From: a virus
Length of the DNA stretch: 61,870 nucleotides
Strand: one strand, 5' to 3'
Virus record (IMG/VR): IMGVR_UViG_3300042885_000276
Span: 1-61,870 of that record
Shown piece by piece: positions 6,012 to 60,373 of the stretch. The notes beneath the pieces were generated by a model that was given only the letters and a program-made list of their open reading frames with translations, searched no databases and was not told the DNA's origin. Position numbers and translations under genes: made by a program. Position 1 is the stretch's first letter. Each line of letters starts with the position of its first letter.

Positions 6012-6031
6012 AACAAACGTAGAACATAAAT

Positions 6032-6322: not shown

Positions 6323-6358
6323 CCAAAATCCACATTGACGCAGGAATTAAACACGGAA

Positions 6359-6607: not shown

Positions 6608-6614
6608 CAATTTA

Positions 6615-8404: not shown

Positions 8405-8657
8405 ATGGGAAGAAAAATGCCGCAAAGAAGTTGCTGTCAGAGATGAGAAAACAAAGATTTTTGGTGTTTTGAGCGACAGGAATTTGCGCGGATACATGAC
8501 AAACTACGGAATACTTATCAGTATTGATAATGAACATGAGGATTGGTCGAAAGTATTAAGCGCCTCAATTTATGCTGAAAAAGTCAGAGAACTTATTGGT
8601 CTTGAGTCGCCTGATTATTCAAGAGATGAAATTCCAGCCACATCCACAATGGATTAA
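8382..8657 (+). CDS. Hypothetical acidic protein, 91 aa
   Basis: Unknown family. It has a very acidic start (NEETEDEWEEKCRKEV) and a central beta-type segment (KIFGVLSDRNLRGYMTNYGI). The start overlaps the end of the previous gene by 23 bases in another frame, and the ATG follows an A-rich stretch (gagtaaatt). Confidence 0.55.
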   Translation: MNEETEDEWEEKCRKEVAVRDEKTKIFGVLSDRNLRGYMTNYGILISIDNEHEDWSKVLSASIYAEKVRELIGLESPDYSRDEIPATSTMD

Positions 8658-18773: not shown

Positions 18774-19952
18774 ATGGCATGTACAGATATTAATCAATTC
18801 TTGGAGTCTGAGAGCCAGAGGATCGTCGACGATCCTTCCGAAAAATCATTCATCAGCAATCCTTGGCAGAACGATTCTATCGTTCCGCGTTCCCGCTGGC
18901 CCAATGGTATGGGCGATACCCCGAACTTCCTGACATTTGAGCGTGCGATGCCGTTCGGTTCCGATGTCACGTTCACCACCTACGGCTTCAATGACGGCGG
19001 TAGCGGTGACGAAGGCGGTTCTTGCCAGCCTCCTGTGTCCACAATCTATCCTTCGCAGACTCGTCGCTCGATGGAACTCAAGATTGCGGCTGTCGAAAGC
19101 CCTCCCTTCTGTATTGAAGATGCTCGTATGAGCTACAACATCGTTCAGCAGGCTGCTGCCTTCATCCGTAACCTTCGTGGATACTCCCGCTACCTGTGGG
19201 AAAATCAACGCCGCGATCAGTTCACGTCCATCTGCTCCAACAAGTACGTCGCTGACGCTGGCCTTACGGTCAACTCCGCTTCGTTCGCCACTGGAACGAT
19301 TGGCACCCTGAAGCGCGAGATGCTTGATTACATCCGCTACAGCCTCATCCGTAATGGAGCAGACATTCAGAACGGCCTCTCCGTCAACAAGATGGGTCAG
19401 CCTCTTCTGCCACTCGTCCTCTCCGATGAAGCTCAGCAGACGCTCGCTACTGATGGCGTGACCATCCAGAACATCCGCTGGGACTCCGAAAAGGTCCGTG
19501 CGCTCAACAATGCCCCTGGTTCCTTTGACAGCCTCAACGGCTTCAAGATGACCATCGACATCGCTGCTGCTCGCTGGAATCTTGTCGGTGGTGCTTGGGT
19601 GCGCGTTCCCTTCATGCTCCCTGCTACCAACAAGGGTGATCCTGCGAACGTCAATCCAGCCTACTTCACGGCTCAATACGAAGATGCGATCATCGCTACC
19701 AAGCAGGTTGTGAAGTTTGCGATTCCTGATTCTCAGCTTGCCGCTGGGGAAATGAAATTCGCTCCTCAGGACTACCTTGGCCGATTCAACTGGATCAACA
19801 AGTATGACCGCACTTGCAACGTGGACGAAAACATTGGCTTCTTCCGTGGCAAGTTCGCCTACGGTGCTCAGCCAGTGATTCCTGAATACGGCGCAATCCT
19901 CCGCTTCCGTCGCTGCCCAACCAACTGGGTTGTGAACACCGCTTGCTCTTAA
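18774..19952 (+). CDS. Major capsid protein, 392 aa
   Basis: This is the main head subunit by position (after portal and scaffold), size and composition: neutral, no low-complexity or catalytic motifs, Pro/Asn/Arg-rich loops, and regular codon use rich in C-ending codons that suggests high expression. Landmarks are 'FGSDVTFTTYGFNDGGSGDE' (about residue 61), 'NIVQQAAAFIRNLRGYSRYL' (spine-like helix) and 'IPEYGAILRFRRCPTNWVVN' at the C-terminus. There is no Shine-Dalgarno before ATG 18774. A strong terminator follows. Confidence 0.8.
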   Translation: MACTDINQFLESESQRIVDDPSEKSFISNPWQNDSIVPRSRWPNGMGDTPNFLTFERAMPFGSDVTFTTYGFNDGGSGDEGGSCQPPVSTIYPSQTRRSMELKIAAVESPPFCIEDARMSYNIVQQAAAFIRNLRGYSRYLWENQRRDQFTSICSNKYVADAGLTVNSASFATGTIGTLKREMLDYIRYSLIRNGADIQNGLSVNKMGQPLLPLVLSDEAQQTLATDGVTIQNIRWDSEKVRALNNAPGSFDSLNGFKMTIDIAAARWNLVGGAWVRVPFMLPATNKGDPANVNPAYFTAQYEDAIIATKQVVKFAIPDSQLAAGEMKFAPQDYLGRFNWINKYDRTCNVDENIGFFRGKFAYGAQPVIPEYGAILRFRRCPTNWVVNTACS

Positions 19953-19969
19953 TTGAGTAAAACCACTTG

Positions 19970-20007
19970 AGGCGGGGTTAGTCTAAAAAACTAGCCCCGC
20001 CTTTCTT
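19970..20007 (+). terminator. Intrinsic terminator after the capsid gene
   Basis: AGGCGGGGTTAGT pairs with ACTAGCCCCGCCT (13 bp with one G-U pair) around a short A-rich loop, followed by TTTCTT. It starts 18 bases after the capsid stop. It is the clearest rho-independent terminator in the window and would cap the head transcript. Confidence 0.9.
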
Positions 20008-20044
20008 GCATACACACCAAAACTCTGCTAATAGCTAATTGCTT

Positions 20045-32171: not shown

Positions 32172-32596
32172 AACGGGATTGGCTTCAGTCTCAGTTGGGA
32201 ATCCTCTCTCAGGCACAACCCCTCCCACCTCCCCATGCACAAAGCAATGGTTAGGTATGGGAGGGCAACCCGGCAGTCTTGTTTTAATTCGCACCGCCAA
32301 CTCTGATGATTACTCATTTTGAGCTAGACCCCCACGAAATCCCCCGTTTTGGCGCTACGGGGAGCACATGACGTTCTCACGGCCTGCATGTCGAGCGTTT
32401 CATTCCTCTCGGTTTGAGTAGCCTCTTTTGCTGAGTAGGCTAAAAATCAGAACATGAAAAAGCCCGAACTCCGGGGTGCAGGCGGAAATTCGGGCTTTTG
32501 CTTCGGATTACCGTGGATTGCTCCAGTTGCACCCGAAGCCAGCTTTTTCAAGCTGTGATAACCATAATCCCACTTGCGCCATTCCGTCAAGCGGAT
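32172..32596. other. 425-bp noncoding region with promoters/terminator
   Basis: No convincing gene. It contains C-rich words (cccccacgaaatccccc near 32331), a short stem TAGCCT/AGGCTA near 32420-32442, and the strong hairpin listed at 32457-32500. It should hold the promoter for the leftward pair 31770-32171 and one for the rightward tail genes from 32597, but no sigma-70 pair is clear. I see no tRNA. Confidence 0.45.
32457..32500. terminator. Bidirectional hairpin terminator
   Basis: aaaaAGCCCGAA ... TTCGGGCTtttg: an 8-bp GC-rich stem flanked by A on one side and T on the other, so it can act in both directions. Rightward it could end readthrough from the terminase region; leftward it would insulate the reverse-strand regulator island. 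Confidence 0.75.
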
Positions 32597-42117: not shown

Positions 42118-45100
42118 ATGGCTACTTGGCACGAGATTACACGCGATCCAGAATATCAAGAACTTTCCGAACAGGGAAAGGCTTTGGTTAAGCAGGGATT
42201 TTTTGAACGAGAAATATCCTCTGATCCTGAATTTAAAGCGTTCTCGCCACAGACACAAAAGGCTGTTTTTGATGACTTTTGGCAAACTCCAGACGATTCG
42301 GGTCAAGGAATAGTTACCTCCACACTCGGAAGTGCTGCCCGTGGATTCGGTGAAATTGTTCCAGGCACATTGGAAGGTGTTGGCGCTCTGACCGGCATCA
42401 CACCTATCAGCGATCTTGGCGAATCTGCTCGCGAAGGGCTGGAATACATTGCGCCAGTCAATCCAATTTACGAGCAAGGCATTCCTGCCAAAGTGGCAAA
42501 TGTGGCTGGTAATGTGGCTAGCATCATCGGCACAAGCGGCGTTGGTGGACTTGCTGGTAAAGCTCTAGGTGCTGAGCGTGCTGCCGCTGCTGGTTCTGCT
42601 GCTGCTAGGCAAGCTCTCACAAATCAAGCCATTCAAGCTGGTGCTAAATCTGCCCTATACGGCACAGGGTTTGCTCAAGGCGCTGCTGCTAAAGCTGCCG
42701 AAAATGAGCGTCTTGGCATCACTGGCGCTGAAGGGTATTTGAATCTTCTTGGCGGTGGCATATCTGAGCTTGCCCCAGAAATGCTTCCATTCGGCTCTGC
42801 GCTTGAAACGTCTGCCGCCCGTCGCTTGCTTGGAGGAGTTGATGATGCTGCTGGTAGAGTAATTCCAGGTATCCGCATGAGCGCAGCGCAAGAAGCTGCC
42901 GAAGGTGGTTCCACGCAAGTTCTCAGTAATCTCTCAACTCAGCTTACTGCTCCCACTGGCGTTGAAGCTCCAGGTTTGTTTGAGGGCGCTGGTGAAGCTG
43001 CTCTTTGGGAGGGCGTTGGTGGCGCAATGTTTGGCGCGATCAACAAACTTGGCCGAACACCTCCAGAGAGGCAGACTGACATCCAAAAAGCGTTCGTTGC
43101 GGAAGATAATGTGGATGCTGTTGATAAAGTTCCAGATCAGACAGACGACGAAAAGCTCGTCAACATGAACGCTGGCGGCACCACAGTGGTTGATCCACAG
43201 GGGAAAACAGCGGTTATTGCGCCACCAGCGCCAAAGACTCCAAGCCAAGTCATCGCTGAAAATCTGGCAACGGCTGCTGAAAATACATCCAACGATGCCA
43301 GTAAAGCTGTTGCAGCGGCGAGGGCTGTGACGCAACAAGTTACCACAACAAATGAGCCGATCACTCAAGAAGCCTTACCGCCAGAGCCGGAGATTCGACA
43401 GGACATGCAGGAATCACGGCAGTTGCCCTTGGTGCCAGAGCAACCGCTTGCACAAGAACCACAAGCGCCCGTTGAGTTGCCAGTTCCAACTGTTGAGCCT
43501 ACCGTAGAAACGCCAATCCAAAATCCAGCAGAAATTCATCGAAATCGCAATGCAGAATCTGAATCGTATATAGTGAGGGATGCCGAAGGGTTTGCCGACC
43601 GAAAAGCAACCAGGGAGGTGGTTGAGGTGGCTGCTAAAGCTGCGGGAATGACTGTGGATGAATGGGCGGCAGATCAGGCAGCCAAAAACATCAAGGCTAA
43701 TAAAGATTTCTTCGATGCCCTGAACGATGGGGACACTTTGGAGTGGATCGACAACAACGGGAGAAAAGGAACTGGACGCGTAGAAATCGGATTGGATGGA
43801 GAGAAAACGGTGCGCAATACCACCGAAGGTTCTCCCTCAGAAGACTACCAGTACACAAATCGGTCTGGCATTTTCGCCCAAGTTGCGGATTCCTTGAAGA
43901 TCACACCCAAAAGAAAAGAAGCCGCCCCCGCAACCGAAGCCCCCGCCCCCACTGCCGAAACTCTTGGTGTCACAGCGCCACCGGCCCCGACGCTGGAAAC
44001 CCCCGAAGGCGCGGCACGCAACGCCGACATGCTCCGTCAAGCCCAAGCCCGTTTGGCTGGCACCGAGCAAGGCCCGCGCATCGGCTTTCTCCAACCTTCA
44101 GAAGTTGCTCCCGCAACCGAAGCCCCACCAATCACTCCTACCAAGGAGACGCCGACGCCCGCTACCGAAGGCACGGTCATGCCGGGAGGCAGCGCCATGG
44201 AGCGGGATGTGACTAAGCCGGAGCAGATGACGCCGGAGGAACACTTGAACGCTTGGAATCAATTAAACATTGATGCTCAAAAAGCGAGGGAAAAGGCAAA
44301 CGCTGCTAAAGCGAAATTGCTTCCTAAAAATCCTGCGTCGCAAATTAGGCAAATGGAGAAAAACGCCAAACTAGAGCAAGAAGCAATTACTCTAGAAAAT
44401 TTGAGAGATGAATTTCCTCCAACTCCTAGTTTTGCAATTGAGAATGCGGTAAAAGAAGGAAAGCCATTCTCGGTAGATCTCCATAAAGCATCAGGATATG
44501 CCTATATTCCCTCTGGCTACACCCGCCAAGGCGACCTCTACGTATTCCAACCGGGGGTAACTGGCGAATTAGTTCAGGTAGCGCCTTCTGCTGCACAGGC
44601 CGTGACGAAGCCAGCTACAGTCAAATCTACAGAGTTGCGAGTTGGTGATGAAGTGTCGTTCAAGGGAAATACATACCGTGTAAAGAGCAAGTTACTTGAT
44701 GGCAGAGTTCGAGCCGAGTTCACAAATCCAGAAGGCATCGCCAAACTTCCAGCGGGTTCTGTTAACATCACAACCCTACCTCGTAACGTCAATCTCACAC
44801 GCATTGAAAAACCATCTCCCCAAACCACAACGGTAGCCACACCAACAGAAACCGCCGCTCCCTTGGCTAAGGAAGCGGCGGTAGCCAGTGTTGTTCAACA
44901 ACCAGCAGAGGGGTCGATCCCTGCTGTTGAGCAAGAATCTGCTATAACTCCCATAGAGTCAAATGAAAAAGCGGACATTGCAGATGCCGCAATGGCATTC
45001 TTGGAAGAGGATTTGACCGAGAGCAAAAGGCAATGGAGTCCAGAAAAGATCGCTGCTGCAAAAGCCTACTTCGCTAGCGGTGGCAAAGACATGGATGTGC

Positions 45101-48100
45101 TTCGTGCTGCATTTCCCAAACTCGTTGGCTCTCGTCCGATTGTTCAAGCCTATCTCAAGGCTGATAAGGAAGCGTCAGAAGCTCAAGCTAAGCGTGATGC
45201 AGCCGATGCTAAGCTCGCCAAAGAAATCGAGCGTGACGAGAAGGAGCAAGCCAAAGCAGAAGAGGCACAAAGGAAACGTGAAGAGCTAAACATTAAGACG
45301 CTCAACTCGCTCATTCAGAAAACGCGCACGAACGTCGTTCAAGGCACCGTCAAGCCAACCGATGCCAATCAAGCTGTCGCGATTCTCAACAGTTCAGGCG
45401 AGATTCCAAATGTGCTATTCACCTGGATTGGCACCTCAAAGGACTTCCTTGCTGATCCTGCGAATCGCGTTCGTTATCCTGAGACTTGGAAAGCCATCAG
45501 TAGTAATCCGAACATTGAGGGAGCGTCTGATAATGGACAGCCGATTGTCTTCACGGACAACATTGGCGTATCCGATCTTGACCGTAAGCTAGCCAATCTT
45601 CAAGGCACTACGCCAGAAGTGGCGGCAGTTCGTCGCGTCATCCTTCATGAGAACATCCATAAAGGCATATTCTTCTTATCAAAGAAGGAGAAGATGCAGA
45701 TCTTCTCGTTATTGCGCCGGATGTACTCTCCAGAGGAGCTTGATTCGCTTGCTAAGTCCTATAGCAAATACTCTGACTGGCGCACGAATCGAGATAACTA
45801 TTTCAGCTTATTAGAAGAAGCGATGATTCGTGACTTCGACTCAATGGCGGAAATTCCGCGTGATGGCATTTGGGCAGAGTTCATGCAATTTCTGCGTGGC
45901 ATCTGGCAGAAGATCACTGGCAAGACGAGCGAGCCTACGCTAAAGGACTACAAGGATGTTTTCCGCTTGATTCGCAATAGCCTGAAGAACTCGGAGAAGG
46001 CTAATGCTGACATGCTGGTGAATGGTGGTGGCGTGCGGATTGGCATTGCATCCAAAGTCGAATACGATTCCCCAAACGATGCCGCATTCAACAGTGGCGC
46101 TGAAGTAGCTCGCAACACTGATTACGACGAACGCGACAAGGAAGTGCGTTCTACTATTCGTGCAGCATACGATATTGCTCCGAAGACAAATGGCCCATCG
46201 GTGCCGCTAGACGAGCTTTTCAGCATCGTGCAGCAGTCGATGCCTGATCTGACGGAAACCGAGTTCAGCCGTATCTTGCAAGGGCTGTATGAGGACAGTG
46301 GGGCACTGTTGATTGAAGGTGAGGTTGCTCCATCCTATACTTCAGAAGAAGAGGCTAGACATGCCGAACTTGAGGCCAAGTTCAACGCTGGCACCATCAC
46401 GCCAGAAGATACGGCAGAGGCGCAGGCTTTGGTGGATGAACGGGCGAAGGCGGCGGGGTATGATGGCGGTATAGTGTGGCATGGAGATCGTAATGAGGAG
46501 TTTGTAGATAATTACTCTCCATTTACCGAGCCTAAGATTCCATTTTTTACAACACCATCAAAAAAATCCGCTAGTTGGTATGGAAATCCTCGCTCATATT
46601 ACAGCAAAAAAAGTAAAGTTGCTGGAATATCTGATATTTTCAATGCGGCTAACGCGCTTGGTATTACCAAAGATAAATCCGATCCATATTATGAATTTTG
46701 GCCTGAAATAAAAAAATATTCAGAATACGATGGGGTTAACGATAATGATCTTGTTTATGTTCCGTCTATCCGAGAAGAGTTGGTAAAACGTGGATTCACA
46801 AGAGTCCGAGTTTTGGATCAGTTAGAGAATCAAGAAATAACTGCTGATATTTTTATTGATTCACCCTCTCAAATCAAATCCGCAGACCCATTCACAGGAG
46901 TCCCACTCAACCAGCGTTTCGATACTGGTAACGATATTCGCGGCAACATCAACACCTTCACCACCGAAGGCGAACGCGCTGGATCTGTCATCGTTATGCC
47001 ACCGTCTGGATTCCAGACAAGAGCGATGGCGTCAATGATTGATCCTAAAGACGCTGCAACCAAACAGTTCGCGAAGAATATTAAGGACATCAACAGTGGC
47101 ACAGCTAAGGCTGCATTCGACGGCGTGCAGTTTGTTGACTTCGAGCCAGTTGATCACATTGTTAAGCCAAACAAGTCATACGAAAAGATAGCCATTGACT
47201 ATGTAGATGGACTTCTTGGTGAGGGTAAATCCATTGAGGATATTGCCACATCTATTATGACTCCTATGTTCTTCGATAGCATTGGTATCAGCAATGATGT
47301 CAAGGCTCGTCAGGCTCTCACATCAGAAGTTCTTCGTCGCGTCACCGATCTAAACGGCCTATCTAATACTCGTCTAGCATCCAAGCGATTACAGAAGTTG
47401 GAAGACTTAATCAGTGCATTCTGGCAAGGTCTTGGAACTGAGAGCGGTGGAAACCAAGGCCAGCGTGCTTTCATTATCGGAAGCCCTCGTTATTCATGGA
47501 TGTTTTTGAAGGACTCCGTGAAGAAGGAGATGAAGGAACGCCGAAACAACATTCTCACTGTTCAGTTTGGCAATAATAACGCTACCAGCTTCACTCAGAA
47601 CTCGTATGAGAATGCGGATAAGGCTTCCACCATGTCTGCGGATGAGATTGCCAGTGACATTGAAGACTTCAAGATTGATCAAGATTTGCTCGATGGAGAG
47701 GCAACACTAACTGGCAAACTTGCGAAGATGTATGAAGAGTTGAAGGACTTACTTCGTGAGAATGGAATCTTGGCTCGACTTGACGCTCAAGAAAACATCA
47801 CGGCAAAAGCATCTATTTCACCAGCGCGGAGAGAGGAACTTGCTGCTTTGAGCAAGGATGAGCGTGCAAAATTGCGCGACAAAAACAATAAGCGCATTGA
47901 GCAAATCCTGAACACTCTACTTGGAAAAGAAGAGGATGCCGATACGACAGAGAAAAAGACCGTGCGTAAGAAGCGTGAGAAGATGGTCGATGCTGTGAAG
48001 AAGCGCGTTGAGCAGGGTAAACCTATTGAGCCTACTGACTACGTTCCAATCATCACCGAGAATCCACAACGCGATGAGATTATTGATGATGTTTCTAATG

Positions 48101-51100
48101 CTTTGCTACAAGCGGCAAAGAAGCGCGGAGTCAAGCCTTCTCAAAAAACCGCATTGGCAGACTTAGTTGCCAGTATCAAATCTCTGCTCAAGAGGAATAT
48201 AAAAGGTGAAGATTTAAAAGCTGACGAAGCTCCATTGGGTCAATTGCTGGCGAGGACATATCTCGACAACCTCACGGCAACTGAAGCTAAGTTGTTTACT
48301 GAAAGCTGGAATGATGGACGTAAAAAGGTTCGTGCTATGCTTACAGAGATGGGTGTTGAAGGCACTCAACTTGAGGCTGAACTGAATGCCATCATGCCAG
48401 CAACTCCAACGATTGCATACAATCCATCGGCAGTTCGCAAAGCAATCACACGCGCATTGCGTGAAGCCGGTCTTGATGCCAATGACCTTTTGGCTAACAC
48501 GCAGTCAGTTAAATCCGAAATTCTCAAAGTTTGGGATAATGCCGCTGTTGATGCTGGCTTAACACCTTCTGTTTGGCAAGAAGGGCGCAAACTTGCTGAG
48601 AAGTCTATTGATGAGTTTGTTATTGAGCGCAAGGCATCCAAGGAAAAGGCAAAGAAAATTGCCAAAGTGGTATCTGAGCAGGCTAACAATCCAGTTTCAC
48701 TAGCTGATTTCAGCAACTCACTGTCTCAATACAAACTCAATGATGGCAAGGTTAAAGAGCTTTTCGACAAAGCTAAAGTTCTTGCGAATAAGAAGGTTCA
48801 AATTGCCTACGACATGGCTGTTCGAGTCCTTCTTGTATCAGAGAATAATCTAGCTCAAAGCGCATTCTTTAATTCCGCCACCAAGCCAGACACCATCGTT
48901 AAGGCTTTCCGTCAGCAAGTGAGTGATCCAATGAGTCGTCAGGATTTCAAGGATCGCATGGAAGCAATGAAAGTCAGTGGAGAATTGGCCGATAGGCTTT
49001 TCGACAGGGCTGCTCGTGAAAAAGACAATGCACAGTGGAAGCGTGCTCAAGACATGCTTGAAGGGCCAAATGCTCTGCGTAACATTCTTCGCGAGATCAA
49101 TCGCGCACGTCCAGGTAATCAAGCGCCATTGTCTGAGCAGATTCCTTGGCGTCAGCTTCTTTCGCAAAGCTCAAAGACAGTTGAAGAATACCGCCAGCGT
49201 ATCCTTGACGCAATCTCTGCCAACGAATCACTCAAGAACGCAACGCCAGAGCAAAAGGCACGTCTCGCAGAACTATTCACTGAAGCATGGGAAACCAAGC
49301 GTAAACGCATTCTCGACAGCATGCAGGAGCGATTGATCCGTGAGCAAGAGGCAAAAGGTAATCTCAGCAAAAAAGCTGCTAAAGCTCTTCAGGAAAATCG
49401 CATGCGTATAGTTGAGGACATCAACCTTGGCATTTTCGACAACGATGAAATCGCGAAGATCATAGCTGAGAAATTCGGCATCAAGTCCGAGTTCACTGAT
49501 GAAGAGCGCCAGAAAATTGAGTCGCTGATTGCAATCTTGCAGGATGAAAAACTCAACCGCGTAAAGCGCAACAAAGCAGCTTACGAGTTGCTGGAAACGC
49601 TCAGCGCACAGACTGGTATTTCAATTGCTAAGTTGTTGGCAAACTTCTGGGTGTCTAGCGTGCTTTCTGGGATGAACACGGTGTTCTCTATCGGCATGTC
49701 TGTCTTTAGTGGTATGGGCGAGCTCACCACTGCCCTGTCTCGCATCTTTTCTGCTGCATTCTCAAATCCAAAACAGCTTTCGTCTGAAGTTGCAGCGGCA
49801 TTTAAGACTCTGGCAAGAGTAATATCTGCCGTCCCTCGTCAAGCCAACAGAGCTTGGCAATACCTCGTCACAGGAGATCAAGCATTCCTTGATCCATCTA
49901 TGAACGATGCGCTCAAAAACATGGATTACGCATCCATCGGTAAGAATAACCAGCTTGCTGAGCAGATGGCGAAGTCTGATAAGATTCTCGAAAAGAGCAT
50001 GGGTCTTTTCATGCGAACAGTTAGCCGACTACTTACCGCTCTCGATTTGTTTAATAGTGGACTCACCAAAGAAGGCTCGCTTTCTATTGTGTTCCGCCAG
50101 CTTGATCTTGATCCTGTTAAAATCCAAATGCTTGAGAAGAAGTCTGACTTGAAGGCATATAAGGATCAGGTGATTCGAGACTATTTCAACAATGTGCAGC
50201 CAAAAACTCTCAACGAAAAAGCACTCGTTGAATCCTACGCCATGGCTGAAATGATGAAGGCTCTGGATGAAATTGGCAACGTGTCTGAAAACGCTGACCA
50301 AATGGCAATGCAGGGTGCGATGACGCTCGATCCTTCTGGCCTTGGTGGATATGGCTACCGTTTCGTTAAATCAATGATGAAGAGTGCTGAATCTGGCACC
50401 GATAAATTGTTGGAACGAAACCTTCGCAAATGGGATGAGGCAGTCGGTGTAGATGAGAAAGCGGAAGCTGGCGTGAAGTTGGTTTTGTCTTATATCTTCC
50501 AATTCGCTGCCTACAACGCTGCAAACTTGGTAGGTGTCCGATTTGCTCGCTTCGCTGGTAACAAGTTCAACCAGAGTCTTAGCTTCTTGCCTTTAATTGG
50601 CGCTTTGAGGCTGTATGAGGCCGAGTTTGATTCTGACCGCATTCGTGGCAAGGAGGCGTTCACAGATATGATCAAGCGTAACCAACTCACGGGCGTAATT
50701 GCTGCTGTGATTGGATACTATGTTCTTAAAGCTATCGCAGAAGAACCGGATGATGAGAAGCGAGGCGCATTCATCAATGGTGGTTGGAGCAACTTGACCC
50801 CAGAAAAGAAACAGCAAAAGATAGCTTCTGGACAAAAAGAATACACGCTTGGCTTTGGGGATACGGTGATCAATTATGGCAACTGGCCTGGATCTGGCAT
50901 CCTAGCAGCCATCGGTGGATTATCAGATTTGATCCGCTTCTCGCCTGACCAATGGAATGATAAGACTGTTGCCAACAAACTACTGTCTGCAACCACGTCT
51001 GGCGTGTTTTCAGCTATGGAAGTTCCAGCCCTGTCTCAGTTCCAAGAACTGTTTGGTAGTAGCTTGTCCAGCAAAGATCCGAATGAGCAAAAGCTCACAA

Positions 51101-51630
51101 AATTTGCTCGCGTCATAGGAAACTATGTGGGCGGTTTCGTTCCTCGTATCCTCAAAGATATTGATTATATATCCGATCCAAACTTCAGGAAATACGAAAC
51201 GCTGTGGGAGAAAACAGCCTCGCACATCCCTGTTTATCGTCGTTACGAAGGCAAGGAGTACTACGACATCTTGGGCCAGCAAATCCAACGCAATGTGTAT
51301 CCTGGAAGCCGCGAGTTCATGGTGAAGCCAACTGATCCAGCCTATAAGGTTCTCGGCGCTCTCAATTCCCGTGGAATCTGGCTGACTCCTGCTAATGCTG
51401 AACACCGCATGGTTGGCAAGGGCGCTCGTCGTCGCTCCCTCACGCAGGAAGAAGCTGACAACTACAGCCTTGAAACCGGCAAAGGCTATAAGCAGATGCT
51501 TCTGCGATACGGTCAGCGTGCGCTCCAGATGCCCACAGAACGCGCCAAAGCATTCTTGTTGGACAAAGCTGACGAAGTGCGCGACAGGGCGCTCAAGAAG
51601 GTCTATAGGGGCTATCAACCTGCAACGTGA
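42118..51630 (+). CDS. Giant polyvalent virion protein with metallopeptidase and ADP-ribosyltransferase-like domains, 3170 aa
   Basis: This is probably an ejected internal protein, by size, place and parts. Domains in order: a short helical N-terminus (WHEITRDPEYQELSEQGKAL); a Gly/Ala-rich membrane-active-looking segment (about 60-320); Pro-rich linkers (to about 700); a KOW/SH3-like segment (about 835-880, ELRVGDEVSFKGNTYRVKSK). A zincin domain has HENIH (His1177, Glu1178, His1181) and Glu1233/1234 as the likely third ligand. An ART-like domain (about 1450-1610) has VWHGDRNEEF, SKKSASWYGNPRSYY and PSQIKSADPFTGVPLNQRF, the ending I know from ART domains of polyvalent proteins. Long helical regions follow, then an 'ANFWVSSVLSGMNTVFSIGM' segment (about 2510) and a C-terminal set of helices. 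Composition shifts at domain borders. Confidence 0.85.
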   Translation: MATWHEITRDPEYQELSEQGKALVKQGFFEREISSDPEFKAFSPQTQKAVFDDFWQTPDDSGQGIVTSTLGSAARGFGEIVPGTLEGVGALTGITPISDLGESAREGLEYIAPVNPIYEQGIPAKVANVAGNVASIIGTSGVGGLAGKALGAERAAAAGSAAARQALTNQAIQAGAKSALYGTGFAQGAAAKAAENERLGITGAEGYLNLLGGGISELAPEMLPFGSALETSAARRLLGGVDDAAGRVIPGIRMSAAQEAAEGGSTQVLSNLSTQLTAPTGVEAPGLFEGAGEAALWEGVGGAMFGAINKLGRTPPERQTDIQKAFVAEDNVDAVDKVPDQTDDEKLVNMNAGGTTVVDPQGKTAVIAPPAPKTPSQVIAENLATAAENTSNDASKAVAAARAVTQQVTTTNEPITQEALPPEPEIRQDMQESRQLPLVPEQPLAQEPQAPVELPVPTVEPTVETPIQNPAEIHRNRNAESESYIVRDAEGFADRKATREVVEVAAKAAGMTVDEWAADQAAKNIKANKDFFDALNDGDTLEWIDNNGRKGTGRVEIGLDGEKTVRNTTEGSPSEDYQYTNRSGIFAQVADSLKITPKRKEAAPATEAPAPTAETLGVTAPPAPTLETPEGAARNADMLRQAQARLAGTEQGPRIGFLQPSEVAPATEAPPITPTKETPTPATEGTVMPGGSAMERDVTKPEQMTPEEHLNAWNQLNIDAQKAREKANAAKAKLLPKNPASQIRQMEKNAKLEQEAITLENLRDEFPPTPSFAIENAVKEGKPFSVDLHKASGYAYIPSGYTRQGDLYVFQPGVTGELVQVAPSAAQAVTKPATVKSTELRVGDEVSFKGNTYRVKSKLLDGRVRAEFTNPEGIAKLPAGSVNITTLPRNVNLTRIEKPSPQTTTVATPTETAAPLAKEAAVASVVQQPAEGSIPAVEQESAITPIESNEKADIADAAMAFLEEDLTESKRQWSPEKIAAAKAYFASGGKDMDVLRAAFPKLVGSRPIVQAYLKADKEASEAQAKRDAADAKLAKEIERDEKEQAKAEEAQRKREELNIKTLNSLIQKTRTNVVQGTVKPTDANQAVAILNSSGEIPNVLFTWIGTSKDFLADPANRVRYPETWKAISSNPNIEGASDNGQPIVFTDNIGVSDLDRKLANLQGTTPEVAAVRRVILHENIHKGIFFLSKKEKMQIFSLLRRMYSPEELDSLAKSYSKYSDWRTNRDNYFSLLEEAMIRDFDSMAEIPRDGIWAEFMQFLRGIWQKITGKTSEPTLKDYKDVFRLIRNSLKNSEKANADMLVNGGGVRIGIASKVEYDSPNDAAFNSGAEVARNTDYDERDKEVRSTIRAAYDIAPKTNGPSVPLDELFSIVQQSMPDLTETEFSRILQGLYEDSGALLIEGEVAPSYTSEEEARHAELEAKFNAGTITPEDTAEAQALVDERAKAAGYDGGIVWHGDRNEEFVDNYSPFTEPKIPFFTTPSKKSASWYGNPRSYYSKKSKVAGISDIFNAANALGITKDKSDPYYEFWPEIKKYSEYDGVNDNDLVYVPSIREELVKRGFTRVRVLDQLENQEITADIFIDSPSQIKSADPFTGVPLNQRFDTGNDIRGNINTFTTEGERAGSVIVMPPSGFQTRAMASMIDPKDAATKQFAKNIKDINSGTAKAAFDGVQFVDFEPVDHIVKPNKSYEKIAIDYVDGLLGEGKSIEDIATSIMTPMFFDSIGISNDVKARQALTSEVLRRVTDLNGLSNTRLASKRLQKLEDLISAFWQGLGTESGGNQGQRAFIIGSPRYSWMFLKDSVKKEMKERRNNILTVQFGNNNATSFTQNSYENADKASTMSADEIASDIEDFKIDQDLLDGEATLTGKLAKMYEELKDLLRENGILARLDAQENITAKASISPARREELAALSKDERAKLRDKNNKRIEQILNTLLGKEEDADTTEKKTVRKKREKMVDAVKKRVEQGKPIEPTDYVPIITENPQRDEIIDDVSNALLQAAKKRGVKPSQKTALADLVASIKSLLKRNIKGEDLKADEAPLGQLLARTYLDNLTATEAKLFTESWNDGRKKVRAMLTEMGVEGTQLEAELNAIMPATPTIAYNPSAVRKAITRALREAGLDANDLLANTQSVKSEILKVWDNAAVDAGLTPSVWQEGRKLAEKSIDEFVIERKASKEKAKKIAKVVSEQANNPVSLADFSNSLSQYKLNDGKVKELFDKAKVLANKKVQIAYDMAVRVLLVSENNLAQSAFFNSATKPDTIVKAFRQQVSDPMSRQDFKDRMEAMKVSGELADRLFDRAAREKDNAQWKRAQDMLEGPNALRNILREINRARPGNQAPLSEQIPWRQLLSQSSKTVEEYRQRILDAISANESLKNATPEQKARLAELFTEAWETKRKRILDSMQERLIREQEAKGNLSKKAAKALQENRMRIVEDINLGIFDNDEIAKIIAEKFGIKSEFTDEERQKIESLIAILQDEKLNRVKRNKAAYELLETLSAQTGISIAKLLANFWVSSVLSGMNTVFSIGMSVFSGMGELTTALSRIFSAAFSNPKQLSSEVAAAFKTLARVISAVPRQANRAWQYLVTGDQAFLDPSMNDALKNMDYASIGKNNQLAEQMAKSDKILEKSMGLFMRTVSRLLTALDLFNSGLTKEGSLSIVFRQLDLDPVKIQMLEKKSDLKAYKDQVIRDYFNNVQPKTLNEKALVESYAMAEMMKALDEIGNVSENADQMAMQGAMTLDPSGLGGYGYRFVKSMMKSAESGTDKLLERNLRKWDEAVGVDEKAEAGVKLVLSYIFQFAAYNAANLVGVRFARFAGNKFNQSLSFLPLIGALRLYEAEFDSDRIRGKEAFTDMIKRNQLTGVIAAVIGYYVLKAIAEEPDDEKRGAFINGGWSNLTPEKKQQKIASGQKEYTLGFGDTVINYGNWPGSGILAAIGGLSDLIRFSPDQWNDKTVANKLLSATTSGVFSAMEVPALSQFQELFGSSLSSKDPNEQKLTKFARVIGNYVGGFVPRILKDIDYISDPNFRKYETLWEKTASHIPVYRRYEGKEYYDILGQQIQRNVYPGSREFMVKPTDPAYKVLGALNSRGIWLTPANAEHRMVGKGARRRSLTQEEADNYSLETGKGYKQMLLRYGQRALQMPTERAKAFLLDKADEVRDRALKKVYRGYQPAT

Positions 51631-53426: not shown

Positions 53427-53456
53427 ACTATACGTCCGTTTTTGGTTGAGATGCAA
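53427..53456 (-). promoter_or_regulatory. Sigma-70-like promoter for 53414 and downstream leftward genes
   Basis: On the reverse strand TTGCAT (53451-53456) is followed after 18 bases by TATAGT (53427-53432), a good match to -35/-10 elements, 13 bases before the ATG at 53414. The spacer contains AAAACGGACG, the motif repeated in other control regions. It would let the four last leftward genes be expressed apart from the HNH gene it overlaps. Confidence 0.5.
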
Positions 53457-53997
53457 GTGGGATTTTTCTTTTTGGTCTTTCACTCACAGGAACAGGAAAT
53501 GCTGTTTGTGTCTTATTTATAATAAATGAAAGCGTCCCTTTGCTGCTCAATCCAAACTCAATCATGGTTTTATTGAATCCATTCTCTTTATAGTATTCAA
53601 TAATTTTTACATGATCGTGTTTCATGGCATGCCTAGAAGTTGCAAATGCGTGAGCATGTCTAGCTTCAGCAGGTCGATCCATCATGTTTTGTGATGATGT
53701 TCCAGGTATGATATTATCAATGTGATTATTCAATGAGTTTCCATCTAGGTGGCGGCATACGATATTAGGCTGGTAGATTTCATCGCCAAATTTAAACCAA
53801 GCATTGAAGCGGTGAACAAGGCACTTACAACGCTTTGTTTTTGGGCCGAATGAAAACACTCGATAACCATTACTTAGTGATTGACCAACAATCGAACCGT
53901 CTGGTTTTGTGATTGTTTTGCCATCAGGTGTTATGCGGAATCCCATGTTGGCAGCTAATTCCTCATTTCTGTTTGGTGTATAGAATGGTTTTTTCAT
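53428..53997 (-). CDS. HNH endonuclease (HNH_3-like), 189 aa
   Basis: The domain 'LVHRFNAWFKFGDEIYQPNI' with 'VCRHLDGNSLNNHIDNIIPG' and 'TSSQNMMDRP' is the HNH_3-type core (HxxDGNxxNNxxxNI). The N-terminal part (ITPDGKTITKPDGSIVGQSL) is the usual strand-rich lead-in, and the C-terminus has a possible HTH ('IIEYYKENGFNKTMIEFGLS'). AT-rich codon use marks it as mobile. It lies directly after the helicase gene; start 54006 is an alternative. Confidence 0.8.
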   Translation of the reverse strand: MKKPFYTPNRNEELAANMGFRITPDGKTITKPDGSIVGQSLSNGYRVFSFGPKTKRCKCLVHRFNAWFKFGDEIYQPNIVCRHLDGNSLNNHIDNIIPGTSSQNMMDRPAEARHAHAFATSRHAMKHDHVKIIEYYKENGFNKTMIEFGLSSKGTLSFIINKTQTAFPVPVSERPKRKIPLASQPKTDV

Positions 53998-53998
53998 A

Positions 53999-55366
53999 TT
54001 ACTCATTTTCTCTTGCTGGATCAAAGCGGAAGAACCTTCCATTGAGCGTTGCCTTAACGATTTTCAGCCTCTCTCCATTTCTATTCTTCTTGATAAAAAG
54101 GTTCCTCTCGTAATTCGGCTCATCCTCTTTCTTTTTCTCCCATGCCTTTGCCTGCTTCTCAAAGGGCTTTTGGATGATTATCAAATTGTCTGAATCTTGC
54201 TCGATGGCTCGCGACTCGCGAACCTTTCCATCCTCATTAAGCTGTGACGGCATGATGATGTGAGCGCCAGTCATTTTAGCACACTGCTTTGCTGTGGCCG
54301 TGATATGGGCAACTTCTCGCTCACGGTTTCCACCATTGGTTTTAGATGTCAGGCAGAGTTGAATGTAATCAATGGAGGCCACTAATTTCTGCCCCTGCTT
54401 TAATCGCTTTGAGCGCCTAGCAATATCTCGGCAGATTTGTTCAATGGTCTTGCCAGCGACATCCACGATGGAAATCGGCCACTTGGATAGACGCATCGTT
54501 TTGACGCCAATGCTTTGATGCTCAACACGAGTCAGCATCCCATGTTTCAAATTACTAGAATCAATACCGGCTTGTGAGCAAATCAACCTTCCAGCCTCTT
54601 CTGTGTCTCGCATCTCGTAGGTGTAGATCACGCCAACATGATCCTGAAGGCATGCGGATTCCACAAATTGACGAGCAAGGCAGCTTTTACCGTCACTGGA
54701 TTCACCAGCGATAACAGTTAGTCGTCCATCTTCCAGACCACCAAGGTATTTATCGAAACCAGCAAACCCAGTGGAGATGCCTGGAATCTTGCCTGGATTG
54801 GCGCAACGCTCCTCAATTCCATTCAAAACGTCTGTTAAAAGCTCTCCAATTTGACGACATGGCAAATCTGCGCTGGAATCATCGTTTACAGCCTCACAGA
54901 CGAGCTTGGTGACGTGCTGGATGGCATCAGTAGCGGAAACACCATCGGCCTCTTGAAACGCCTGCAAATGGGCAATACCAGCAGCCATGGCACCGATCAT
55001 CTGGCGGAACGCAAATTTGTCCCGCAAGATGGTTAGGTAATACTGATAATTTGAAGCAGACGGAATCAGTGTGAAAAGCTCACTGATGAACGCAGGTCCA
55101 CCAACGATAGTCAGCTTATTCGCATTTCTGAGAGCATGAGTGAGTGAGATTTGATCAATCGGCTTACCTGCTGCGAATAGACCGATAATTGTTGTGAGGA
55201 TGATACGATTTGCCTCATGATACATGATCTCGGCATGAGGCGCTTCATCACACAGCGATGGTCGTTGAAGCAAGCATGAGAGGATCGCTTGCTCCGTATC
55301 ATCGTCATACGGAAGCTGTTTGTTGAGAGAGGCTAGAAGATCCTCGGTTGTTGGTGGTTGTGTCAT
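53999..55366 (-). CDS. DnaB-like replicative helicase, 455 aa
   Basis: This unwinds DNA at the phage fork. The N-terminal domain begins 'LPYDDDTEQAILSCLLQRPS' as in DnaB. The RecA-like ATPase has 'GLEDGRLTVIAGESSDGKSC' (Walker A GESSDGKS), 'KLVASIDYIQLCLTSKTNGG' (Walker B with Asp), 'GAHIIMPSQLNED' and a C-terminal 'KKNRNGERLKI' arginine-finger-type region. The start at 55366 overlaps the upstream initiator's stop by ATGA. No phage DNA polymerase is coded, so host polymerase is probably recruited. Confidence 0.9.
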   Translation of the reverse strand: MTQPPTTEDLLASLNKQLPYDDDTEQAILSCLLQRPSLCDEAPHAEIMYHEANRIILTTIIGLFAAGKPIDQISLTHALRNANKLTIVGGPAFISELFTLIPSASNYQYYLTILRDKFAFRQMIGAMAAGIAHLQAFQEADGVSATDAIQHVTKLVCEAVNDDSSADLPCRQIGELLTDVLNGIEERCANPGKIPGISTGFAGFDKYLGGLEDGRLTVIAGESSDGKSCLARQFVESACLQDHVGVIYTYEMRDTEEAGRLICSQAGIDSSNLKHGMLTRVEHQSIGVKTMRLSKWPISIVDVAGKTIEQICRDIARRSKRLKQGQKLVASIDYIQLCLTSKTNGGNREREVAHITATAKQCAKMTGAHIIMPSQLNEDGKVRESRAIEQDSDNLIIIQKPFEKQAKAWEKKKEDEPNYERNLFIKKNRNGERLKIVKATLNGRFFRFDPARENE

Positions 55367-56169
55367 TGTTGTTTCTGAGCCTCCACGATAATCTTCGGCC
55401 AATTTTGGCAAAAGTCGAAAATTGTAGATGCCCTAACAAAAGCTGGGCAAAACTTGTCTTTTGATCGCTCCCAGCACCAAGAAACAATGTGGATCAGTTC
55501 TTGGATGTCTTTATCACAGATGCGGAGGAATCCTTGAAGCTGCTTGGCATCCTTTGGCTGGAAATAGTACTTTTCACCAAATGTCTTGATGTAGCCATCT
55601 GAATAGGCGGTGATGAATGGATGGAATCTGGGGTCTGCCGGAAGTGAAGGTCTGCCACGCCTTTTGGGTATTGGCATTGAAGAATTAAGCCTCAAAACCT
55701 CTCCGGCATTTATTGCCGGTAATGGTGTATTCTCTGATGTACTCTCTGTACATATAGTAGTTTGGCTAAAACAGCCTTCCAAGTTTGGCGTTTTTGTGCA
55801 TTCCAGTATGGCGCTTTCCGCCATACTGAGGGAATTAATTTTGGCAATATATGTCAGTTTAGCCTCTAAAGCACTCAAGTTGAGACGATAATAAAGCTGC
55901 GCTGGAATCCCAATTAATTTCTCCTCCCAGCAACCTAAATCCTTGAGATTTCTCCTAGCACTCTCCTGCTCACGTCGAGAGAGACACGTCTCCTCTTCCC
56001 ACTCTGCTTGAGTTTTATAAAACCATCCACCAGGGTCTTTTGTTCGACTGCTCCAGTAAAATGCCTGACTAAGCATCACACCAGCATTGACTGATCCTGC
56101 CATTTTTGCAAAAATTCGGTGGTATGCAATTGGCCTGTCTAAAAGTTGGATAAAAAGAGATTGATTCAT
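55363..56169 (-). CDS. Winged-helix replication initiator/helicase loader, 268 aa
   Basis: The N-terminal 110 residues are a winged-helix of the phage replication type: 'RPIAYHRIFAKMAGSVNAGV', 'MLSQAFYWSSRTKDPGGWFY' and 'WEEETCLSRREQESARRNLK' with 'LIGIPAQLYYRLNLSALEAK'. The C-terminal part (about 190-268) is basic and helical, as in helicase-loading proteins. The start at 56169 sits immediately after a structured leader with a T run. It overlaps the helicase gene. Confidence 0.8.
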   Translation of the reverse strand: MNQSLFIQLLDRPIAYHRIFAKMAGSVNAGVMLSQAFYWSSRTKDPGGWFYKTQAEWEEETCLSRREQESARRNLKDLGCWEEKLIGIPAQLYYRLNLSALEAKLTYIAKINSLSMAESAILECTKTPNLEGCFSQTTICTESTSENTPLPAINAGEVLRLNSSMPIPKRRGRPSLPADPRFHPFITAYSDGYIKTFGEKYYFQPKDAKQLQGFLRICDKDIQELIHIVSWCWERSKDKFCPAFVRASTIFDFCQNWPKIIVEAQKQQ

Positions 56170-56246
56170 AAAAACAAAAAGGCCGCTCAGGTTGCTCCCC
56201 CGGTTGCGGCCCGGTTTTACCCGGCGAGGAAGCGGCCTGAACGGCC
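56170..56246 (-). promoter_or_regulatory. Structured leader with terminator-like hairpin before the replication initiator
   Basis: Read leftward, GGCCGTTCAGG (56236-56246) can pair with CCTGAGCGGCC (56181-56191), one mismatch, closing a long imperfect hairpin. The 3' stem is followed by TTTTTGTTTTT and then the ATG at 56169. An inner GGCCGC (56206-56211) and the AGGCCGCT next to the outer arm compete for the same partner, so alternative folds are possible. This looks like an attenuator or operator directly controlling the initiator. Confidence 0.55.
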
Positions 56247-56340
56247 AATGATTGATAAAGCATCTGGTTCTATATGGACGCAACTCCCAAGAACTTCGAC
56301 ACACCAACGCTACTGCATCAAAAAATACAGTCAACAAAAA

Positions 56341-56715
56341 CTACCCAATCGCGGCCAGTTCTTCGTGTTGAGCCAGCACATTCTGCACATAGGCAATTTC
56401 CAAGGCTTCGCCAAATTGAGCTTCGAGTAGGCAATTGTAAAGCCTGTCTGCATCCTTGCGCGATTCGACCAGCTTACCACGCCATATATCCTCAATGCGG
56501 ATCAGTTGCGCCTGGAAGCTCTCCTGGCGTTCTTGAAGGCGTTGGTTTAACTCGGTGATCACCTCACCTATTTTGAGGCATTTAAGCTCCAATTCGGCAG
56601 ATTTCGTGATAAGACTGTTCCGTTCTAGTACAATTTTTCGGGCAAATTCTGTAGAAACCATGTATTTTTGAGAGAAAGCCATTTTCTCAGCCGCATCTGT
56701 CTCTGGTGTATTCAT
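56341..56715 (-). CDS. Coiled-coil protein, 124 aa
   Basis: Highly helical with strong heptads ('ITKSAELELKCLKIGEVITE', 'LNQRLQERQESFQAQLIRIE', 'ESRKDADRLYNCLLEAQFGE'). It starts 'NTPETDAAEKMAFSQKYMV', a start often seen in small phage ead/Ea22-like proteins of unknown role. It is followed downstream by the structured leader of the replication initiator. Confidence 0.6.
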   Translation of the reverse strand: MNTPETDAAEKMAFSQKYMVSTEFARKIVLERNSLITKSAELELKCLKIGEVITELNQRLQERQESFQAQLIRIEDIWRGKLVESRKDADRLYNCLLEAQFGEALEIAYVQNVLAQHEELAAIG

Positions 56716-56717
56716 AT

Positions 56718-56960
56718 TCAGTTATTGATAAAGTGTACGTCGATCTCTGCTGCGATGTCCTCAACCATGTCGTCCAGTGTATCGACAGCGCATTCCCAAA
56801 CTGCATCGCGCATCAATGGGTCGTAGCTGGCGATTTGAACGGCTAGCAGGTGAATGAGAACTTGTGTAGTCTCGTCCTTGGATGCCTTAGTGCTATTAAG
56901 TGTGCGAGCCAATTGATTGTGTAGGCGGCATTCCGCGGATGGTTGTTTTGAGTTTGCCAT
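56718..56960 (-). CDS. Hypothetical protein, 80 aa
   Basis: A helical acidic protein ('ECRLHNQLARTLNSTKASKD', 'LIHLLAVQIASYDPLMRDAV', 'WECAVDTLDDMVEDIAAEID'). Its start codon overlaps the resolvase stop (TAATG), so the two are translated together. No family recognised. Confidence 0.6.
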   Translation of the reverse strand: MANSKQPSAECRLHNQLARTLNSTKASKDETTQVLIHLLAVQIASYDPLMRDAVWECAVDTLDDMVEDIAAEIDVHFINN

Positions 56961-57409
56961 TATTTGATTGTTCTCCGGCAGTATTCAGCAATGAGCAGAC
57001 CGTCCGCAATTGCATGTGTAATCTTCAGATGTGGAAACAACTGCTGAGATTTGGCCTTGCTCACGTTCTTATCGCCTTTTGTTAAGCATCCAAGCTCTTT
57101 CTGCCATCTTTGTGGAGTGACGTAGGTGTATGGGATGCGTGCCGCAGTGAGTGCCATCTCTAGGTTTCCAAATCCACGTCCAAATTTGAAGGACGATGAA
57201 ACTCCCTGCCCCGGCATGGAATGCACAGATTCAAGACAACAGTGAATCGTGTCACGCTTAAAATCGTCTGGATTCCATTCATCAAACACTTCCCACAAAT
57301 CAGTCAGAGTCTCAGGCATTTTTACAGCCCAAGCCTTCGCTGGATTATTGTCAGGAATGAAGGCGATGCTACCAGACTGTCCTGGGTCCACTCCGATAGA
57401 CAGCTTCAT
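56960..57409 (-). CDS. RuvC-like Holliday junction resolvase, 149 aa
   Basis: An RNase H-like fold with the RuvC acidic residues: Asp8 in 'SIGVDPGQSGSIAF', Glu60 in 'CCLESVHSMPGQG' and Asp136 in 'HAIADGLLIAEY'. It resolves or debranches recombination and replication junctions before packaging. Size is close to phage RuvC-like proteins. It overlaps both neighbours, in the recombination operon with SSB, exonuclease and RecT. Confidence 0.85.
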   Translation of the reverse strand: MKLSIGVDPGQSGSIAFIPDNNPAKAWAVKMPETLTDLWEVFDEWNPDDFKRDTIHCCLESVHSMPGQGVSSSFKFGRGFGNLEMALTAARIPYTYVTPQRWQKELGCLTKGDKNVSKAKSQQLFPHLKITHAIADGLLIAEYCRRTIK

Positions 57410-58841: not shown

Positions 58842-59639
58842 TTACGTTGCAAGCCATTTCTTTTTCTCCCATACAGGAATATCCAAACTGAGTACTCCCT
58901 TAGAATATCCAGGCCAATTTCCAGTAGCAAGACAAGTCGAGTATGTGTCAATGCAGCGATTCATCTGTGCCCTTCCAATTTCTAAAGCCTCTTCCGGTGG
59001 TTGATAAAAAACAACATCGTGAGGCTCTTGTGTCTCTACAACCATCCATAGCCATAATGGTGGCTCCTCTAAACCCAGTTCTAATGCTAGAAGAGTTTGA
59101 TACCAAGCGCATTGAGCCGTATATTTTAGTCCAAATACCTTTCGACCAAAATCATCTGGGTCGGCTGATGATGTAGTTTTTAGGTCCAGTATCATAGGCT
59201 TACCACTTTCATCCTGGCCGTATGCGTCAAGCCGCCCCTTGATCTCGACGCCCTTGTAATTGTTCACAATGCCTACTTCGCGCTGCTTGCACAGGTTGAG
59301 CATGTATTGAGCGTCAGGGCTATTGCGGACAGCCTCAACAGTGCGGACAACTGTTGCATGCTCAGCCAGAGACAGGATGGTCATGCCAGCGTGTTTATCG
59401 CGCCATGCCTTGCCCTCTTTGGTCCGAAGATCAATATCAACAGGCTTAACGGTATGGCTGTATGGTTTGCCTTCGAGCACAGTTTCGTGAACGATGGTTC
59501 CAATAGTCATCTCAATTGAAGGCTCAAATGTCTTTTTGAGCGATGACTGATAATGCTTTGGGGACTTGAGGATGGTCTTTAGGCTACTGAAATTAGCAGC
59601 CGGATGCGACCTATAAGTTTGTTCGTCTAGGATAATCAT
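58842..59639 (-). CDS. PD-(D/E)XK exonuclease (RecE/YqaJ-like), 265 aa
   Basis: This degrades one strand of double-stranded ends so that the partner annealing protein can act. The motif 'GRLDAYG' (Asp138) and 'ILDLKTTSSA' (Asp152, Lys154) form the PD-(D/E)XK core, with Glu121 in 'REVGIVNNY' and His51 in 'GTIVHETVLEG'. The C-terminal helices are typical of the RecE-like phage family. It overlaps the RecT gene start-stop by 4 bases, a standard pair. Confidence 0.85.
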   Translation of the reverse strand: MIILDEQTYRSHPAANFSSLKTILKSPKHYQSSLKKTFEPSIEMTIGTIVHETVLEGKPYSHTVKPVDIDLRTKEGKAWRDKHAGMTILSLAEHATVVRTVEAVRNSPDAQYMLNLCKQREVGIVNNYKGVEIKGRLDAYGQDESGKPMILDLKTTSSADPDDFGRKVFGLKYTAQCAWYQTLLALELGLEEPPLWLWMVVETQEPHDVVFYQPPEEALEIGRAQMNRCIDTYSTCLATGNWPGYSKGVLSLDIPVWEKKKWLAT

Positions 59640-60373
59640 TCTGCCACCTCCTGCATCGAAGGAAGCGCAAGGCTTGCGGTTGGTTTTGGGGTTATGTCGC
59701 GCTCAAGAACGACATCGCCATCTTTCTCGATGTGCTCTGCGATTTCACTAGCAAGCGGCAGCAGTTTGCACAGTCGGCGCAAACTTGTCTTCTTCGCCAT
59801 TTCGCCGTAATCCGTAGCCCATGGACCAGAGTTACCAGAGCGTGAACGCTTGCGGATAGCATCAACCTCATCCTTTGTCATGGTAGCGGTTTGAGTTTCG
59901 CCAGACTTGAGAACGGCTTCTGCATATACAGCTTGGATTTCTCCACGAGGTTTACGCCACTCGACCTTGTGCGTGATTTTGCCATTTTCCCATACGAACT
60001 CATCATTCTCACAAACGAGTTCAGAGCGAATGCTGACAACATCGCCGGAGCGACGAACAAGCTCGATCATGCCCATATATGACAAAATCAGAGTGCATTC
60101 AGATCCGTAAGGAATCAGATAGGCACGTCGTCCATCTGGCTCAAGACCTGCGGCAGAAAGGTCTAGCAAGCATTTGAATAGACTTGCCTGAGTGCAATCC
60201 TGCAACTTTGGTGTTCGCTGCAATGCTGTGAGAGCAATGCGCGAGAACCGCTCAGGAGTCATGTGCTTTGGCAGCGCCAATGCTACTTGCTCGCGGAACT
60301 TTTCTCCGCCGATCATCTCTTTGAGAGTCGGTTGCTTAATCGTTGGTTTTGTTTCTGTATTGTTGTCGCTCAT
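59636..60373 (-). CDS. recT: RecT-family single-strand annealing protein, 245 aa
   Basis: The core 'ALPKHMTPERFSRIALTALQ', 'ASLFKCLLDLSAAGLEPDGR' with 'AYLIPYGSECTLILSYMGMI' and 'ELVRRSG', and 'VEWRKPRGEIQAVYAEAVLK', is the RecT signature. The C-terminal part has 'RKRSRSGNSGPWATDYGEMA'. It binds single strands made by the adjacent exonuclease and anneals them. Length is close to the E. coli Rac RecT. Confidence 0.9.
   Translation of the reverse strand: MSDNNTETKPTIKQPTLKEMIGGEKFREQVALALPKHMTPERFSRIALTALQRTPKLQDCTQASLFKCLLDLSAAGLEPDGRRAYLIPYGSECTLILSYMGMIELVRRSGDVVSIRSELVCENDEFVWENGKITHKVEWRKPRGEIQAVYAEAVLKSGETQTATMTKDEVDAIRKRSRSGNSGPWATDYGEMAKKTSLRRLCKLLPLASEIAEHIEKDGDVVLERDITPKPTASLALPSMQEVAE

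Follow-up and report, generated by a model that had tools for sequence, protein, structure and literature searches.

A conserved hairpin leader of exchangeable types at the start codon of a phage replication module, a candidate leaky terminator

Introduction

Regulatory RNA elements ahead of replication genes are known from several mobile genomes. The immunity RNAs of phages P4 and P1 act by premature termination, and on plasmid rep genes attenuation is controlled by antisense RNA. Two further systems resemble the locus described here. IsrK is an sRNA of the Salmonella prophage Gifsy-1 whose promoter feeds the downstream operon by terminator read-through (PMC4825925). Hairpins also precede phage homing endonuclease genes, namely T4 segB and the I-Tev genes, Aeh1 mobE and seg43(25) (PMC2988022); for the last of these, in Aeromonas phage 25, a highly stable hairpin is predicted directly ahead of the RBS.

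The locus analysed here lies on a virus contig, between a recombination block and a replication module, and carries a long hairpin whose U-tract runs up to the start codon of the first replication gene. A literature search, with most subscription journals outside its coverage, returned analogues and no description of this arrangement. The leader hairpin is real, is conserved among close relatives and is of more interest than a lone hairpin; its action is predicted from sequence.

Results

The window, meaning the whole stretch of DNA analysed, is IMGVR_UViG_3300042885_000276, a virus contig of 61,870 bases. On its minus strand the gene order is a recombination block, an interval of ~170 nt, an O-like replication initiator gene and a DnaB-like helicase gene. 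The recombination block holds genes for a RecT-like protein (59636-60373) and exonuclease VIII (58842-59639), an HNH gene and a Holliday junction resolvase gene (resolvase 56960-57409), and two small genes also belong to it upstream of the interval. The upstream gene at 56341..56715 (minus strand) encodes a 124-aa protein with no Pfam or PHROG match at E 0.001 and no confirmed relative in cellular genomes, and among 50,697 records of named phages there was no match to this protein and no DNA match to the leader. The gene behind the hairpin (55363..56169, minus strand; 268 aa) is a replication initiator, as the original prediction had it, matching PHROG 9773 'replication initiation O-like' at E 7.6e-41; its start at 56169 agrees with homologue matches that begin at residue 1 or the first few residues. 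The helicase gene (53999..55411, minus strand) is next in the replication module and matches Pfam DnaB_C at E 6e-41 and PHROG 19. Elsewhere in the window, a ferredoxin-like gene (5379-6011) is kin to cyanophage genes and matches 100 phage records, 95 of which bear Synechococcus, Prochlorococcus or cyanophage names. A cyanobacterial host is thereby hinted at, although relatives of the O protein in cellular genomes (23 loci) are spread over many bacteria.

Read leftward, a long hairpin, a T run and an ATG follow one another as originally claimed. The terminator-like hairpin (56181..56246, minus strand) is 66 nt long with a predicted energy of -42.9 kcal/mol, and consists of an 11-bp outer stem, in which GGCCGTTCAGG (56246-56236) pairs with CCTGAGCGGCC (56191-56181), a 9-bp inner stem and an 8-nt bulge on the 3' side. 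The U-tract TTTTTGTTTTT (56170..56180, minus strand) abuts the ATG at 56169, placing a terminator-grade hairpin with its T run in the leader of the O-like gene that it precedes, and UUUUUGUUUUU, directly after the stem, is a U-tract of the kind expected of an intrinsic terminator. Folding of 56165-56260 (minus strand) gave a minimum free energy of -44.1 kcal/mol (z -4.9); shuffled sequences averaged -29.1, and 0/200 did as well. After linear G+C correction the hairpin ranks second among 12,356 90-nt segments from both strands of the record; the sole place with a stronger corrected fold is 44851-44940 (minus strand), opposite a 3170-aa open reading frame (42118-51630) that has no Pfam match at E 0.001. 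A search of 55800-56800 against Rfam returned three sub-threshold matches, none above the gathering cut-off. The O frame is open upstream to 56337, through hairpin and leader, with no in-frame ATG in that stretch, and the HNH-gene frame of locus L041 (4962-5786) is uninterrupted across both elements too. Translation of the hairpin as an N-terminal extension was rejected, T2 leaders (see below) having an in-frame stop just before the ATG by eye. A short possible reading frame with a GTG, TTG or ATG start was also seen by eye in several leader types, at ~56302-56270 in the window, near the inferred transcript start.

Relatives were sought with the 124-aa upstream protein and not with the hairpin, so that the anchor is independent of it. 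This search returned 25 viral loci, and a wider alignment-based search returned 29, the same 25 and four at 45-49% identity. A common layout, in which the upstream stop codon is soon followed by a TTGAC element and a long hairpin precedes the next gene, is present in 25/25 loci of the protein search and 25/29 overall. The four most distant loci have no such leader; the strongest 64-nt fold in the 600 nt downstream is -22 to -25 kcal/mol, and the layout is absent. Two of them, L096 and L097, do not differ in the compared downstream region; from 1501 onward their upstream-gene end resembles that of L070, but a different gene without a leader lies behind it. The 25 hairpins comprise 15 of type T1 (the window type, including a variant T1b), four T2, five T3 and one T3b (L070), which shares an inner motif with T3. 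Because many loci are near-identical contigs, the number of loci should not be taken for a number of independent events. At least three unrelated hairpin sequences occupy the same place. The distance from stem to ATG in the 24 T1-T3 loci is 11 nt (n=3), 13 nt (n=4), 14 nt (n=11), 16 nt (n=1), 6 or 14 nt (n=2) and 6 or 12 nt (n=3; L060, L067 and L068), and is therefore 11-16 nt in 21/24 if L059 and L069 start at the HNH-gene ATG; in L070 a further in-frame ATG inside the hairpin makes the start uncertain. A T2-like variant, T2b, came from an O-protein search (L010, on the same contig as L118), and pattern searches added L100 (T3b), L119 and L121 (both T2b), which, having been found by hairpin patterns, give no unbiased support for the hairpin.

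Several broader distributions were considered and set aside. A mobile or repeated hairpin is contradicted by its single copy in the record and by the T1 motif pattern, whose matches in 16 contigs are confined to the leader locus in 15 and in the remaining one, L122, are a G+C-rich chance match. Matches of the inner-motif pattern in L102, L103, L106-L108, L110 and L113-L116 are chance occurrences in other contexts. Nor is the hairpin a property of the O-gene family: by eye, only 4/58 O-homologue starts carry one (L002-L004, which are near-identical contigs of the window phage, and L010), where an uninterrupted basal helix of >=9 pairs had to end 11-15 nt before the start, L137 being without a start and L009, L023 and L152 left out. 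A compact 9-bp hairpin in L011 falls just outside these limits at ~18 nt before the start, and other strong folds at O-homologue starts are mostly large branched structures.

An approximate terminator index was 38.6 to 48.4 for T1/T1b, about 0 for T3b, -30 to -40 for T3, -53 for T2b and -61 for T2; it is only a crude guide, because two other terminator-like hairpins near gene ends in the window, at 19921-20010 (plus strand) and 32451-32540 (minus strand), score -0.6 and -26. A canonical terminator appearance is confined to T1/T1b (15/25 loci), the U-tracts of T2, T2b and T3 being weak and that of T3b marginal. The absence of a good U-tract from T2, T2b, T3 and T3b suggests that termination may not be what is conserved.

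In all six variants (T1, T1b, T2, T2b, T3 and T3b) the predicted fold consists of small 5' stems, one or two in number, then a linker and the long hairpin, with a 3'-side bulge of 6-8 nt that is clear in five of the six and small in T2b. The predicted 5' stem of the window leader RNA spans 56262..56300 (minus strand), its first base lying near the inferred transcription start. Among related phages pairing is kept on the mRNA strand. In the T1/T1b hairpin (8 rows, 26 pairs) 98.1% of 208 cells are paired, and three variable pairs of the long helix switch between standard pairs only (C-G/U-G, U-A/U-G and U-G/U-A); no pair is changed on both sides and one inner pair is broken in 4/8 rows, the sequences being close relatives. 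In the T1 5' stem 95.5% of 88 cells are paired; all changes are confined to one side of a pair, and 4 rows have one pair broken. For both T1 elements every shuffle equals the observed value, since variable pairs change one side only. As U-G pairs become A-C mismatches on the plus strand, these T1 changes indicate pairing of the mRNA strand. In T3/T3b (6 rows, 18 pairs) 98.1% of 108 cells are paired, one inner pair is broken in 2 rows and four pairs are changed on both sides, in 8 cells, values reached by 0/500 shuffles for cells and 57/500 for pairs, where shuffle counts are not probabilities. Two pairs of the T3/T3b 5' stem are also changed on both sides, and comparison of T2 with T2b by eye reveals compensating differences at two outer pairs and one inner pair.

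At the other end of the interval, a promoter-like -35 element, TTGACT (56329..56334, minus strand), lies 6 nt after the upstream stop codon, and is separated by a 16-nt spacer from a promoter-like -10 element, TAGCGT (56307..56312, minus strand), which fits TAnnnT and has 3/6 matches to TATAAT. The TTGAC is kept in every leader variant examined. TTGAC with TAnnnT at 16-17 nt is found in T1, T1b, T2, T2b and both T3b leaders, and the L070 contig, L112, carries a complete TATAAT; neither of the two T3 leaders tested has TAnnnT at this spacing. Within the window, 1/127 TTGAC sites on both strands has TAnnnT at 16-17 nt, namely the one at 56334, by a test chosen after the sequences had been seen. 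The position of these elements suggests a transcription start near 56300.

The genes behind the leaders vary within a hairpin type. Behind T1 leaders lies an O-like gene in 3 loci and, in 12/15, the start of one and the same HNH nuclease gene, so the hairpin has no fixed link with the initiator; T3 leaders have that HNH start behind them in 2 loci and a different HNH gene in 3, where HNH identity was tested for L041 and L060 only. In L055 (T2) a 115-aa gene precedes the O-like gene. BLAST comparison of six locus pairs revealed that homology changes <=6 nt from the start codon in four: it runs to 56166 between the window and L041, to 10647 between L118 and L119 (ATG at 10645) and to 5028 between L060 and L069 (ATG at 5023), and between L058 and L069, whose leaders are unrelated, homology on the right sets in precisely at the ATG (5050). 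In the remaining pairs, window/L055 and L060/L058, homology is lost at the TTGAC element and picks up again only within the downstream genes. On the left, leader exchange is bounded by the TTGAC element in these two pairs and in L058/L069. Leader and module are thus swapped independently of each other, in many cases at the ATG though not in all, and such separate exchange hints that replication-gene expression is gated at the leader.

Whole modules and single genes also differ among these phages. Replication modules are swapped wholesale, the window having O-like and DnaB genes (53428-56169) and L041 having genes for HNH, an initiator-like protein and a primase-helicase (5157-8457). The first gene of L119 (4604-5937) joins an O-like N-terminal part to a part matching homing-endonuclease and unknown PHROGs, and the next gene retains the C-terminal part of the L118 initiator. 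In the same two closely related contigs a pentapeptide-repeat-like gene differs in repeat number (L118:9632-10258 and L119:3426-4217).

Discussion

Tentatively, the hairpin is read as a leaky terminator that closes a dedicated leader RNA, with the replication module depending on read-through. A leader RNA of ~120-130 nt would begin at a promoter just past the upstream stop codon and end in a strong intrinsic terminator; the U-tract of this terminator reaches the start codon of the gene that opens the replication module. The initiator would be made only by polymerases reading through, because no promoter fits between hairpin and ATG. The leader would hold replication-gene expression low by default, and expression would rise once termination is overcome, either because the terminator leaks or because a factor of phage or host acts on it. 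Leader and module are distinct cassettes, exchanged between phages and joined at the ATG or close to it. This possibility is favoured because of the strength and rank of the hairpin, the T1/T1b index, the layout in 25/25 loci, the combination of TTGAC and TAnnnT, the kept pairing and the junctions at the ATG. Counting against it are the four distant loci without a leader, the T1 pairs that never change on both sides and include one broken inner pair, a T1 -10 element with half of the consensus positions and the T3 leaders without TAnnnT; a strong terminator before a gene that the phage must express would also be odd unless read-through is frequent. An extension of the leaky-terminator reading, decidedly speculative, is that position-fixed, type-variable leader cassettes gate the replication module, each perhaps with its own factor, and through controlled read-through could set compatibility or exclusion groups of co-infecting phages.

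The poor U-tracts of the other hairpin types are the main result against a terminator, and keep alive the alternative that the conserved function is that of a 5'-UTR hairpin at a near-fixed distance from the start codon, which would protect the mRNA or hold the start region open for initiation without a Shine-Dalgarno (SD) sequence, termination in T1 being incidental. This alternative is rather unlikely. It accommodates the stem-to-ATG distances, which hold despite differing U-tracts, and the last 8 nt of the T1 leader, including the AUG, are unpaired (P paired 0.06); the non-sequestering hairpin of seg43(25) (PMC2988022) may offer a parallel. No SD sequence lies before 56169, and most gene starts across the window are without one, an SD match of 4 or more occurring at 9/58 first-ATG starts, chosen mechanically, against about 22% of random places. 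Against it, the U-tract of T1 is better than such a role needs, and part of the start region is predicted to be paired in T1b, T2 and T3 (P 0.57-0.67). An SD-sequestering hairpin, as in T4 homing endonuclease genes, was rejected for the window, given the missing SD and the unpaired AUG of T1. By eye, the G-rich 3' arms lie close to the ATG in T2, T2b, T3 and T3b.

It is unlikely that the leader is instead a small RNA gene whose product acts in trans, with the downstream gene expressed by read-through in the manner of IsrK. The 5' stems, linker and closing hairpin in 6/6 variants would suit an sRNA, and IsrK (PMC4825925) provides the precedent; however, leader sequence is wholly different between types at one locus, no target is known, and the T2, T2b and T3 hairpins score as poor terminators.

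Slightly less likely again is an ordinary insulating terminator at a mosaic junction, behind which recombination set a foreign replication module that lives on read-through. Recombination at gene borders is common in modular phage genomes, and both the differing downstream modules and the ATG junctions in 4/6 comparisons fit this; an insulator would not account for a promoter-like site within the same short interval or for different structured leaders at the same place in 25/25 close loci.

Classical attenuation, by mutually exclusive terminator and antiterminator pairings or under antisense-RNA control as on plasmid rep genes, is very improbable. The layout proposed in the original prediction stands as far as the terminator-grade hairpin with its T run and the kept pairing are concerned, a promoter-like site lies upstream of the hairpin, and the extra GGCCGC copies are present, together with a GGCC-GUUCA-GGCC alternative in the T1 5' arm. 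The exclusive pairings did not hold up: constrained folding found no alternative structure of comparable strength, the candidates reaching -27.3 and -30.7 against -44.1 kcal/mol and so being 13-17 kcal/mol weaker, opening of the 3' arm costs 13.8 to 22.6 kcal/mol in 6/6 variants, and by eye T1b lacks one of the extra copies. A promoter-like plus-strand match at 56087-56115 would read antisense through the hairpin, such matches being no commoner there than in shuffles (17 against a mean of 13.1). A DNA-level element, whether a single-strand initiation hairpin (origin) or a protein-binding operator as also entertained originally, is scarcely credible despite its place adjoining the initiator and helicase genes, for the U-G changes preserve pairing in the mRNA strand and not in its complement, the hairpin is found before an HNH gene as well, and hairpin sequence varies by type. 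An integron attC site, with core motifs GTTRRRY and RYYYAAC, was rejected, neither motif occurring in the T1 hairpin.

If read-through does set replication-gene expression, the leader would be a compact RNA gate at an exchange point of the replication module, and the natural leader types at one locus make the mechanism testable by simple reporter swaps. In either case the locus is a clean instance of module exchange at a start codon.

Compared with known systems, the T1 hairpin shares with intrinsic (Rho-independent) terminators a G+C-rich hairpin directly followed by an interrupted U-tract, but it directly precedes a same-strand gene and has its end at that gene's start codon, and the U-tracts of the other types are weak. 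The P4 and P1 immunity RNAs share the promoter, short RNA and termination ahead of replication genes that are predicted here, whereas no integrase or repressor was found among the 29 window proteins scanned with PHROGs. As in the homing endonuclease genes of PMC2988022, a stable hairpin lies directly upstream of the start, and many relatives have an HNH nuclease gene first; the window hairpin, like that of seg43(25), sequesters no SD, unlike others of that group, and the hairpin is present where the nuclease is absent. IsrK resembles the locus in layout: it is a short phage RNA that has a promoter and a terminator to itself (PMC4825925), both predicted here, and read-through yields the mRNA of the genes behind, although here those genes are replication or HNH genes and the leader has no Rfam match at gathering score. 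The present locus is a variant of known leader and terminator elements, set apart by its place at a module border and by its exchangeable types.
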